Source: Amycolatopsis roodepoortensis
GTDB lineage: Bacteria; Actinomycetota; Actinomycetes; Mycobacteriales; Pseudonocardiaceae
Reading direction: 5' to 3'
Length of the DNA stretch: 64,000 nucleotides
NCBI RefSeq assembly: GCF_014873915.1
Contig: NZ_JADBEJ010000005.1
Coordinates: forward strand, 1,736,001-1,800,000
Shown: piece by piece, positions 50,853 through 53,491 of the stretch
Numbering within the stretch: position 1 is the first letter of the stretch
Layout: every line of letters starts with the position of its first letter
Position numbers and translations under genes: made by a program
Notes under the pieces: model-generated
What the model saw: only the letters and a program-made list of their open reading frames with translations
Told to the model about the DNA's origin: nothing
Databases searched by the model: none

Positions 50853-51878
50853 TCAGCCGAAGAAGACCTCGGCCTCTTCGTACCGCTCGACCGGGACGGT
50901 CTTCAGCTCGGCGGTGGCTTCGGAGAGCTTGACGCGGACGATGTCCGTGCCGCGCAGCGCCACCATCACGCCGAAGTCACCGTCGGCCACGGCGTCGACG
51001 GCGTTGAGGCCGAACCGGGTGGCGAGCACGCGGTCGTACGCCGTCGGGGTGCCACCACGCTGGACGTGCCCGAGCACGACCGCGCGGGACTCCTTGCCGG
51101 TGCGGGCGGCGATCTCGTCGGCCAGCCAGGTGCCGATGCCGCCGAGCCGGACGTGCCCGAAGGCGTCCTTCTCCCCGGTCAGCAGCTTCTCCTCGCCGCC
51201 CTCGGGCAGCGCGCCCTCGGCGACCACGATGATCGGCGCGTACTCCTTCTCGAACCGGCGCTCGACCCACGAGACGACCTGGTCGACGCTGAAGTGCCGC
51301 TCCGGCACCAGGATCACGCTCGCGCCGCCGGCGAGGCCGGAGTGCAGCGCGATCCAGCCCGCGTGCCGTCCCATGACCTCGACGACCAGGGCCCGGTGGT
51401 GCGATTCGGCCGTGGTGTGCAGCCGGTCGATGGCCTCGGTGGCGATCGAGACGGCCGTGTCGAAGCCGAAGGTGTAGTCGGTGGCGCCGAGGTCGTTGTC
51501 GATCGTCTTGGGCACCCCGACGACGCCGACGCCGTCGTCCGTGAGCCGCTTCGCGACGCCGAGGGTGTCCTCGCCGCCGATCGCGATCAGCGCGTCGACC
51601 TGCTGCTCGGCGAGCACGGCCTTGATCTTGTCGACCCCGCCGTCGACCTTGTAGGGGTTGGTCCGCGACGACCGCAGGATCGTGCCGCCGCGGGTCAGGA
51701 TGTCCTCGACGTCGTTCAGGCCGAGCGGGCGGCTGTCCCCGGTGAGGGGACCGTTCCAGCCGTTGCGGAACCCGACGATGTCCCAGCCGTGCACCTCGAT
51801 GCCCTTGCGCACCACAGCGCGGATCACCGCGTTGAGCCCCGGGCAGTCGCCACCGCCGGTCAGCACACCGACACGCAT
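50853..51878 (-). CDS. pfkA: 6-phosphofructokinase, pyrophosphate-type residues
   Basis: This 341-aa phosphofructokinase has TGGGDCPGLNAVIRA, GGEDT at 101-105 and VPKTIDNDLGATDYTFGFDT. In E. coli numbering, residue 104 is Asp and 124 is Lys. Asp104 with Lys124 is the pair known for pyrophosphate-dependent enzymes such as A. methanolica PPi-PFK, whereas ATP enzymes have Gly104. PPi would drive a reversible step. EVMGRHAGWIALHSGLAGGA confirms the family. It is followed by a terminator hairpin and divergent from the aroF leader. Confidence 0.93.
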   Translation of the reverse strand: MRVGVLTGGGDCPGLNAVIRAVVRKGIEVHGWDIVGFRNGWNGPLTGDSRPLGLNDVEDILTRGGTILRSSRTNPYKVDGGVDKIKAVLAEQQVDALIAIGGEDTLGVAKRLTDDGVGVVGVPKTIDNDLGATDYTFGFDTAVSIATEAIDRLHTTAESHHRALVVEVMGRHAGWIALHSGLAGGASVILVPERHFSVDQVVSWVERRFEKEYAPIIVVAEGALPEGGEEKLLTGEKDAFGHVRLGGIGTWLADEIAARTGKESRAVVLGHVQRGGTPTAYDRVLATRFGLNAVDAVADGDFGVMVALRGTDIVRVKLSEATAELKTVPVERYEEAEVFFG

Positions 51879-52002
51879 GAGAAGCCTCCGTCTTGTGTTC
51901 CGTAGAGATGACAGTCACATGTCCCGCCGCCAGCGTAGCGGGAGTTCTCTGGATCGGTGCAGGGCGGACCACCTCGGGAATCGGTCCACGCCGGCGATGT
52001 GC

Positions 52003-52008
52003 TAGCTT
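52003..52008 (+). promoter_or_regulatory. -10 box of a leaderless aroF leader mRNA
   Basis: Extended TGTGCTAGCTT ends seven bases before the GTG of the leader peptide, so transcription likely begins at the start codon. No good -35 is seen. Confidence 0.6.
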
Positions 52009-52014
52009 GGCCCC

Positions 52015-52080
52015 GTGCAGCGCTATTTCTGGTTTACGAAGCTGGCCCCGGGTGGGCACGGCCGCGTGAACCTGCGCTGA
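52015..52080 (+). CDS. 21-aa aromatic-rich leader peptide of aroF
   Basis: The peptide reads MQRYFWFTKL at its start, with Tyr-Phe-Trp-Phe at positions 4-7: four consecutive aromatic codons. It ends at TGA 52078-52080. It sits 80 bases before the DAHP synthase start, with two hairpins between, as expected for ribosome-mediated attenuation by aromatic amino acids. There is no ribosome binding site, so it is probably leaderless. Confidence 0.8.
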   Translation: MQRYFWFTKLAPGGHGRVNLR

Positions 52081-52090
52081 CCTCCACCCC

Positions 52091-52160
52091 GAGCCGGAAT
52101 CACACCGGCTCGGCGAGTTCCCGCGGGTCGGTATCCCTTTCGAAAGGAACCAGACCCGCG
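52091..52160 (+). promoter_or_regulatory. attenuator hairpins before aroF
   Basis: Hairpin 1: GAGCCGG (52091-52097) with CCGGCTC (52105-52111). Hairpin 2: CGCGGGTC (52122-52129) with GACCCGCG (52153-52160), enclosing palindrome CCTTTCGAAAGG (52136-52147). Hairpin 2 ends at the base before the ATG and hides the AAAGGA ribosome binding site, so ribosome stalling in the leader could open it. A rho-independent U tract is lacking, favouring translational control. Confidence 0.7.
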
Positions 52161-53237
52161 ATGTCTCCCTCCGCTGACACCCTGATCGCCCTCGACGGGC
52201 ACCGCACGGCGGCCATCAACCCGCTGCTGTCGCCCGCGATGCTGCGGCACGAACATCCGATGACGGCGGAAATCGCCGATACCGTCCTAGCCGGGCGGGC
52301 CTCGGCCGTCGACATCCTCGACGGCCGGGACGACCGGCTCCTCGTCGTCGTCGGGCCCTGCTCGGTGCACGACGCGGACGCCGCGCTCGACTACGCCCGC
52401 CGCCTCGCCGCCAAGGCCGAAGAACACCGCCGCGACCTGCACATCGTCATGCGGGTCTACTTCGAGAAGCCGCGGACCACGCTCGGCTGGAAGGGGCTCA
52501 TCAACGACCCCGGGCTCGATGGGACGTACGAGGTCAACCACGGCCTGCGGATGGCGCGCAAACTGCTGCTCGACATCTCCGCGCTCGGCCTGCCGGTGGG
52601 CTGCGAGTTCCTCGACCCGATCACCCCGCAGTTCATCTCCGACACCGTGACCTGGGGTTCCATCGGCGCGCGGACCGCGGCGAGCCAGGTGCACCGGCAG
52701 CTGTGCAGCGCGCTGTCGATGCCGGTCGGGATCAAGAACTCCACCGAGGGCGACGTCCAGGTCGCCGTCGACGCCACCCGCGCGGCCGGCGCCAGCCACG
52801 TCTTCGCGGGGATCAACCCCGACGGCCTCGCCGCCCTGATCACCACGGCGGGCAACGAGGATTGCCACGTGATCCTGCGCGGCAGTTCGGCGGGCCCGAA
52901 CTACGACCCCGCGACGGTGGCCGACACGCTGGCGCGGCTGGCGAAGTCGGGGCTGCCGGAGCGCGTGATCATCGACGCGAGCCACGGCAACAGCGCGAAG
53001 GACCACGTGCGGCAGGCCACGGTCGTCCGCGAACTCGCCGGCCGGATCGGTGCCGGTGAGCGGGGCATCGCCGGGCTGATGCTGGAAAGCTTCCTGGTGG
53101 AGGGGCGACAGGACCTGACGCTGGGCTCGGCCGCTTCGCTCACCTACGGGCAGTCGATCACGGACGCGTGCCTCGGGTGGGACACGACGGCGGAGCTGCT
53201 GGACACCCTCGCGGAGGCCGTCGACTCACGCCGCTGA
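52161..53237 (+). CDS. aroF: 3-deoxy-7-phosphoheptulonate synthase, class I
   Basis: This 358-aa DAHP synthase (phosphoenolpyruvate plus erythrose 4-phosphate, the first shikimate step) has LLVVVGPCSVHDADAALDYA, MRVYFEKPRTTLGWKGLIND, GIKNSTEGDVQVAVDA and RVIIDASHGNSAKDHVRQ. All catalytic blocks of the AroFGH type are present. Actinomycetes usually keep a class II enzyme for housekeeping; class I copies often serve aromatic-derived secondary metabolism. An aromatic-rich leader peptide controls it. A family C terminator follows. Confidence 0.96.
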   Translation: MSPSADTLIALDGHRTAAINPLLSPAMLRHEHPMTAEIADTVLAGRASAVDILDGRDDRLLVVVGPCSVHDADAALDYARRLAAKAEEHRRDLHIVMRVYFEKPRTTLGWKGLINDPGLDGTYEVNHGLRMARKLLLDISALGLPVGCEFLDPITPQFISDTVTWGSIGARTAASQVHRQLCSALSMPVGIKNSTEGDVQVAVDATRAAGASHVFAGINPDGLAALITTAGNEDCHVILRGSSAGPNYDPATVADTLARLAKSGLPERVIIDASHGNSAKDHVRQATVVRELAGRIGAGERGIAGLMLESFLVEGRQDLTLGSAASLTYGQSITDACLGWDTTAELLDTLAEAVDSRR

Positions 53238-53325: not shown

Positions 53326-53356
53326 GGGAACGCGGGTGCGCGGCGTGCGTAGAGGC

Positions 53357-53477
53357 GTAACTCGCGTGTTCAGGCACGTAACTCGCGTGTCTGGAAGCGA
53401 CACTCACGAGTTACGCCGCTGATCACGCGAGTTACGCCTCTACGCACGCGAGTTACGCCTTCAAGCACGCGAGTTAC
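53357..53477. repeat. 21-bp periodic array of CACGCGAGTTAC (family D)
   Basis: GTAACTCGCGTG occurs at 53357 and 53378, and the inverse CACGCGAGTTAC at 53424, 53445 and 53466. A shortened copy, CACGAGTTAC, is at 53405. Within each orientation, starts are exactly 21 bases apart. The two orientations face each other, giving a large inverted repeat. A similar 21-bp array is at 42911-42958. Confidence 0.85.
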
Positions 53478-53491
53478 GCTTTAGCGCACGC

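Follow-up and report, generated by a model that had tools for sequence, protein, structure and literature searches.

An aromatic leader frame and a predicted five-arm RNA relay upstream of a class I DAHP synthase gene in Amycolatopsis and other actinomycetes

In Corynebacterium glutamicum, aroF is preceded by a leader containing Phe-Tyr-Phe (PMC4046766, PMC3890552; these and the other papers cited here are represented by excerpts of their text). Ribosome stalling in this leader is described as raising transcription under Phe limitation, with Tyr irrelevant (PMC11802643), and AroR is elsewhere termed a translational regulatory leader peptide (PMC7356990). In mycobacteria, leaderless polycysteine frames attenuate translation (PMC13236596, PMC9031893, citing Canestrari et al. 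2020). Actinobacterial leader attenuators with terminators have been reported for trp, ilvB and leuS (Seliverstov et al. 2005, PMC1262725); according to the excerpt of that study, the phenylalanine and tyrosine operons have no conserved RNA structures in front of them, and DAHP is not mentioned there. The Acholeplasma uORFC-13-1 motif puts a frame containing one or more Phe codons ahead of the gene for 3-deoxy-7-phosphoheptulonate synthase (PMC8632094), and the eight leaders listed for Streptomyces lividans in the excerpt of a further paper include none for DAHP synthase (PMC8079986). Our literature search covered titles and abstract openings, with most subscription journals outside its range, and within it we found no description of the leader considered here in Amycolatopsis, Nocardia, Rhodococcus or Micromonospora.

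Layout and conservation of the aroF leader

A first-pass annotation of the window, by which we mean the whole 64,000-nucleotide stretch of Amycolatopsis roodepoortensis DNA analyzed here, had proposed that a short frame with four consecutive aromatic codons, located just behind a -10 box and followed by two hairpins, controls a DAHP synthase gene. All of these elements were recovered (Table 1). The frame comprises 21 sense codons and includes TAT TTC TGG TTT at 52024-52035; six bases separate TAGCTT (52003-52008) from the GTG at 52015; and the second hairpin abuts the aroF ATG and encloses the ribosome binding site, as the annotation had described. Hairpin 1 is formed by CCGAGCCGG and CCGGCTCGG (52089-52097 and 52105-52113), while hairpin 2 spans 52122-52160 and holds AAAGGA. 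The aroF ATG at 52161 lies eighty bases beyond the leader stop, and the encoded protein of 358 residues is, by profile match, the expected class I DAHP synthase (TIGR00034, 480.9 bits against a cut-off of 173.2).

Table 1. Features of the aroF leader locus (window positions).
Feature	Position	Strand	Remarks
Extended -10-like element (TG C TAGCTT)	52000..52008	+	TAGCTT at 52003-52008; 6 nt, then start codon
Leader ORF, GTG 52015 to TGA 52078-52080	52015..52080	+	peptide MQRYFWFTKLAPGGHGRVNLR; no SD in front; presumed leaderless
Control codons TAT TTC TGG TTT (Tyr Phe Trp Phe)	52024..52035	+	strongly biased codon choice in relatives
Arm 1, CTGGCCCCGGGTGGG, within the leader frame	52042..52056	+	predicted to pair with arm 2; inverted repeat; swap z -5.5 / -4.1
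Arm 2, CCACCCCGAGCCGG	52084..52097	+	predicted to pair with arm 1 or arm 3
Arm 3, CCGGCTCGG	52105..52113	+	predicted to pair with arm 2 (default hairpin) or arm 4
Arm 4, CGCGGGTCGGT	52122..52132	+	predicted to pair with arm 3 (anti-sequester) or arm 5; both covary
Shine-Dalgarno (SD) AAAGGA of aroF	52143..52148	+	inside sequester hairpin; also local CCTTTC/GAAAGG hairpin
Arm 5, GACCCGCG	52153..52160	+	adjoins aroF ATG; perfect 8-bp complement of arm 4
aroF-like class I DAHP synthase, putative regulated gene	52161..53237	+	TIGR00034, 480.9 bits

The arrangement stands out from the rest of the window. TANNNT occurs 6-7 nt ahead of an ATG or GTG at 15 sites on the two strands, and only one of these, the aroF leader, opens a short frame with four consecutive aromatic codons; none of 40 dinucleotide shuffles of the window gave a site of this kind with such a frame. 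The RNA from leader to gene folds with a z-score of -4.84, and none of 200 shuffles was equally stable. In the genome, the aromatic-core pattern has a single exact match, again the aroF leader, and one-mismatch matches at four places. The leader observation is confirmed as real and far from chance, and conservation is stronger proof of it than these chance statistics. A search of the window with Rfam models gave no match at the gathering score, with sub-threshold matches only (E 0.33 and 4.8) at 51900-52300. Five DAHP synthase loci, three of class I and two of class II, are present in the genome. Behind aroF, at 53340-53480, a GCGAGTTACGCC-like unit was seen by eye to recur in a cluster, in both direct and inverted orientation.

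Protein searches for aroF relatives gave a match in 71 of 100 genomes and in 120 of 298 genomes. We examined the DNA upstream of 109 genes, comprising 61 from Amycolatopsis and 20 from other genera of its family (all family matches of the 298-genome search), 14 from family f8, eight from f15, two from f4 and one each from f3 and f16 (part of the matches in these five families), together with two class I paralogs. A leader with clustered aromatic codons precedes 104 of the 109. It is not missing from close relatives, being found in all 61 Amycolatopsis genomes examined, and it also occurs in 18 of the 20 other family members, in 14/14, 2/2 and 1/1 loci of f8, f4 and f3, and in 8/8 of f15, where one leader (L107) was recognized by eye only. 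No leader was found upstream of the other five genes: two from family members at 56-57% identity (L117, L118), one from f16 at 50% identity (L098), and both class I paralogs in the genome of the window (L095, L096).

The scan of named genomes with the pattern TGGTTTANNNNGCCGGCYCSSRRKSSG returned at least 120 stretches, 80 of them readable as loci. Of the 80 listed loci, 79 carry a short leader frame whose aromatic core is what the pattern matched; the remaining one, from Streptomyces rimosus, is an unrelated sequence. Behind 76 of the 79 listed leaders lies a class I DAHP synthase; in the other three, the locus ends too near to tell. The genera represented include Amycolatopsis, Saccharomonospora, Prauserella, Pseudonocardia, Rhodococcus, Prescottella, Nocardia, Micromonospora and Plantactinospora, among others, so that the aromatic leaders expected before class I DAHP synthases in other actinomycetes are present in versions carried by many genera. 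Patterns applied at higher ranks gave few matches: one pattern matched the window locus alone over 396 genomes of the phylum (a subset of a larger group), and a wider pattern gave four matches over 393 genomes of the class, all in the same order, neither result being proof of absence elsewhere; the wider pattern misses the window locus itself, which has CTG instead of CCG.

Several individual loci show variations. In two loci from other genera (L107, L113), the arm sequence GGCTCC/GGAGCC stands behind the same control-codon position, and the L107 leader is without a Trp codon. One genome of the same order (L112) has a class I DAHP synthase gene preceded by a short frame that contains FYF. In genome G091, the aroF match (L097) has one in-frame TGA, and the leader is nonetheless present.

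We defined the leader start as the nearest in-frame ATG or GTG with TANNNT within the preceding 13 bases, a rule that permits gaps of 0 to 7. Both leader and gene start were assigned by script in 170 records (95 protein-found and 75 named; 152 distinct sequences), with some genes entered twice and 17 protein-found loci remaining outside the set. The gap between TANNNT and the leader start is 6 or 7 nt in 163 of the 170 records and in 146 of the 152 distinct sequences, with no other gap value, and TG occupies the extended -10 position in 131 of the 163. This spacing fits a start codon presumed to lie at the 5' end of the transcript. The earlier proposal of a leaderless aromatic leader controlling DAHP synthase is strongly supported by this comparison, given a spacing kept in 146/152 and a leader kept with its gene across several actinomycete families. 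Judged by comparison, the leader is real, conserved and functional. Further upstream, at 51948-51965, the window holds a block like (T)GATCGGTGCAG. Such a block occurs in 88 of the 170 records, mostly 63-65 or 73-76 nt upstream of the leader start, and is absent from most Rhodococcus, Nocardia and Micromonospora records. It is possibly an operator, a part of the promoter, or an element of the divergent upstream gene, which we take to be phosphofructokinase-like.

Covariation of the RNA arms and choice of control codons

The original description of the RNA as two hairpins held in part. Both hairpins exist, but two further pairings, arm 1 with arm 2 (1:2) and arm 3 with arm 4 (3:4), had been missed, and the evidence favors a relay of five arms, with arm 1 supplied by the leader frame. 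Bases 52044-52055, toward the 3' end of the leader frame, are complementary to 52084-52095, after its stop, and this pairing competes with hairpin 1; the 3:4 pairing competes with both hairpins. In relatives, arm 1 is usually CCGGCCCNGGGTGGG, the window having CTGGCC; arm 2 reads CCACCC..GAGCCGG after the stop, arm 3 CCGGCTC, and arm 4 GGG.CGG with variable neighbors, while arm 5 follows the SD and precedes the start codon.

Covariation was assessed on dereplicated short-spacer loci (n = 62), 60 of which (33 protein-found and 27 named) have all arms by rule, L085 and L163 being excluded for arm 4. In 54 of these 60, all seven core 2:3 pairs are standard. In partner-swap permutations, the 1:2 helix gave z-scores of -5.5 (GGGTGGG part) and -4.1 (whole arm), the 3:4 helix -5.1 (outer part alone, -4.6) and the 4:5 helix -9.0, with none of 2000 permutations as good for any of the three; these permutations ignore relatedness, which is shared by three control arm pairs outside the model that gave 0.2, -0.5 and 0.3. 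For 3:4, pairs were also counted over 50 distinct rows, with four irregular rows excluded and identical rows merged. The covariation score of 0.165 lies above all 500 shuffles (0.130 ± 0.009) and compares with 0.020-0.076 for slid arms; the share of paired cells is 80.2% against 78.1% in shuffles, and 29 cells are changed on both sides against 20.1. Two of the five measures are not above the shuffles, namely pairs changed on both sides (5 vs 4.8) and pair types (18 vs 17.5), and the five outer 3:4 pairs are unformed in 44, 20, 14, 9 and 20 of the 50 rows.

Changes in step between lineages can be read directly from the arms. For 4:5, the window has CGCGGGTC/GACCCGCG, Nocardia-type loci CGTGGGT/ACCCACG and one locus (L189) TTCGGGT/ACCCGAA; the best 4:5 stem is 4 bp or shorter in 13 of 60 rows. 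For 1:2, GGGTGG/CCACCC is replaced by GGGATGG/CCATCCC in Pseudonocardia rows and by AGTGG/CCACT in L047. By these comparisons the three competing helices 1:2, 3:4 and 4:5 are judged to coevolve, and the role of the second hairpin as an SD sequester, suggested at first pass, gains support from the covariation of its outer stem. Two other pairings were considered. A long-range pairing of TCTGGTT (52028-52034) with AACCAGA (52148-52154) was rejected, as its second half is, by eye, lost in many relatives. The best fold of the window also includes a stem, CAGCGC/GCGCTG, joining the start of the leader frame with its end, whose arms are too invariant for a covariation test.

Codon choice within arm 1 is equally restricted. 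Among the 33 protein-found dereplicated loci, Ala is always GCC and the second Gly always GGG (33/33 each), and the first Gly is GGT in 26 of 28; the corresponding usage in window ORFs is 43%, 23% and 11%. The synonymous sites of arm 1 are thus fixed, which indicates pairing rather than peptide as the conserved property.

A comparable bias marks the control codons. TTT encodes the last Phe in 90 of 92 protein-found loci, and TAT the preceding Tyr in 87 of 96, against 1.6% and 5.6% in a reference of 37 window ORFs picked by base composition, the leader rows being related and not independent; the other Phe is TTC in 78 of 80 protein-found loci. Two fixed places are thus kept for TTT and TAT, codons that are rare and wobble-read. 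The aromatic codons also keep a constant spacing to arm 1, as would follow if the front edge of a stalled ribosome fell beside that arm. This constant spacing, together with the nearly invariant TTT at the last Phe, makes ribosome stalling a plausible trigger.

Proposed mechanism and alternative readings

We consider a leaderless, ribosome-mediated translational attenuator of aroF to be the best explanation, with a probability of roughly two in three. RNA polymerase would start at or beside GTG 52015, where the -10 spacing suggests that a 70S ribosome begins without an SD. With ample charged tRNA-Tyr, tRNA-Phe and tRNA-Trp, the ribosome would pass arm 1 to the stop codon and 2:3 would form, leaving arm 4 free for arm 5 and the aroF SD shut. 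If an aromatic tRNA is scarce, the ribosome would wait on TAT TTC TGG TTT, and arm 1, just ahead of it, could pair with arm 2. The freed arm 3 would then capture arm 4, opening arm 5 and the SD so that DAHP synthase is made. The decision would fall during transcription, before arm 5 is synthesized. The sign of this predicted response fits a biosynthetic gene.

To model this decision, the front edge of the ribosome was moved along the leader in 60 loci, with the transcript ended after arm 4. The median predicted 3:4 probability was 0.00 with the Tyr codon in the A site, 0.02 with the first Phe, 0.50 with Trp and 0.09 with the last Phe, followed by 0.11 one codon past the last Phe and 0.00 further on. 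The mean at Trp was 0.47, against 0.10 when arm 1 was shuffled once per locus (median 0.00 throughout), and edges +9 and +27 differed with a Wilcoxon p of 4e-11, the rows being related. A Trp stall thus gives a 3:4 probability above 0.5 in half of the 60 loci before arm 5 is made, the window excepted. With the stop codon in the A site, the median is 0.26, which blurs the off state. Our confidence in the attenuator is slightly reduced because Tyr and first-Phe stalls predict almost no switch. Simultaneous sensing of all three aromatic amino acids, as put forward in the first-pass annotation, is at present a hypothesis; for the C. glutamicum aroF leader, the review excerpt names Phe limitation as relevant and Tyr as irrelevant (PMC11802643). 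In the window sequence, none of the stall positions tested raises the 3:4 probability above 0.00, and the stop codon gives 0.15; its 2:3 stem is 9 bp long, and its arm 1 has CTG where most relatives have CCG. Several other Amycolatopsis loci likewise stay at about 0. Folding of the full transcript at equilibrium under a ribosome mask showed no switch: SD-open probability was at most 0.1 in 70-89% of 62 loci (well-sampled positions), and 2:3 was dominant in 75-97% of 60 loci at any ribosome position. Since neither equilibrium folding nor the window's own fold gives a switch, the proposed switch rests on the relatives and on a co-transcriptional decision. The leader, the arms, the spacing and the covariation of 1:2, 3:4 and 4:5 are themselves established by comparison across relatives.

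The same leader and stalling could instead act on transcription, with the 2:3 or 4:5 hairpin, or Rho, stopping the polymerase upon ribosome release. Spacer length, from leader stop to gene start, bears on this reading. It is 100 nt or less in 156 of the 170 records and longer in 14 (139 and 13 distinct sequences). By a rule made for this analysis (6 or more stem pairs, then TTT), 13 of the 14 long-spacer records have such a hairpin at the corresponding place, in line with a transcriptional output, whereas only three of the 156 short-spacer records pass, and in these three the stems are those of arms 3 and 4. The long-spacer group includes records of Micromonospora and Plantactinospora as well as genomes from families f4 and f8, and its head is alike, with aromatic codons and then an arm 1 matched after the stop (more examples were seen by eye). 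In the window, an intrinsic terminator was sought and rejected: the scanner calls no terminator-like site at 51850-52250, a result that is weak alone, as the scanner is also blank in two long-spacer relatives, probably because A-T stem pairs consume the T run. Some actinomycete terminators are without long U runs, which leaves more room for a transcriptional output. The 2:3 stem of the window is followed by CGAGTTCC, without a T run. The covariation of 4:5, whose arm 5 adjoins the start codon, argues instead for control of the SD. C. glutamicum AroR is said, in the excerpt of the review, to act on transcription (PMC11802643). For the window locus, we regard a transcriptional output as unlikely. 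The comparison tends to favor, by a little over even odds, one sensing head, composed of aromatic codons ending in a fixed UUU and the arm 1 spacing, with two output platforms, evolution having exchanged transcriptional and translational readout. The five-arm SD relay platform would be that of Amycolatopsis, Saccharomonospora, Pseudonocardia, Rhodococcus and Nocardia, and the terminator-like hairpin that of Micromonospora, Plantactinospora and others.

Two further readings dispense with the sensing of uncharged tRNA. A nascent leader peptide together with a free aromatic amino acid could halt the ribosome in the manner of TnaC, and the residues past the aromatic codons (PA, GG) are indeed conserved. 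These residues coincide with arm 1, however, where the codons themselves are fixed (GCC and GGG throughout), which disfavors a conserved peptide as the signal; residues beyond arm 1 are variable and the aromatic residues lie near the N-terminus, making an arrest peptide highly improbable. The frame might also be translated without any sensing role, its conservation reflecting a constitutive 5' UTR fold, as would suit equilibrium calculations in which the SD stays mostly closed wherever the ribosome sits. Such a fold would leave unexplained the retention of aromatic codons at a fixed spacing to arm 1, with the rare TTT and TAT kept, the covariation of both mutually exclusive pairings of arm 4, and the swap of output platform between lineages with the sensing head retained; we consider it improbable.

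Relation to described leaders

All aromatic amino acids draw on the flow set by DAHP synthase, the first enzyme of their synthesis, and in these genera so do many antibiotics built from them. If the proposed switch before its gene is real, it could be engineered directly. Among the relatives, transcriptional and translational readouts behind a shared sensing head could be compared in naturally occurring variants, as could a chain of five arms with covariation in both competing pairings of one arm.

Like AroR of C. glutamicum, which attenuates by ribosome stalling, the window leader is a short frame that bears aromatic codons and immediately precedes a DAHP synthase gene. It differs from the Phe-Tyr-Phe leader, transcriptional according to the review excerpt, in its Tyr-Phe-Trp-Phe block and SD hairpin, a comparison made by description and not by sequence; attenuation by a terminator hairpin, as in the AroR type, was not found at the window locus. 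With the polycysteine frames, which control downstream translation, it shares a presumably leaderless short frame and a run of codons for the relevant amino acids, TAT TTC TGG TTT encoding end products of the controlled pathway. Those frames concern cysteine and other genes, and the likeness is again one of description rather than sequence, as the excerpts present them. A control-codon leader peptide with competing RNA arms is common to the trp, ilvB and leuS attenuators; the latter, on the excerpted account, have terminators. The uORFC-13-1 motif shares an upstream Phe-codon frame before aroF and differs in having its own RBS and an apparent intrinsic terminator, in its occurrence in distant bacteria, and in that the excerpt describes no Tyr-Phe-Trp-Phe block (PMC8632094). 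Attenuation of the AroR type and by leaderless polycysteine frames is thus known, and what is new here is a presumably leaderless Tyr-Phe-Trp-Phe leader with a predicted SD relay before aroF.
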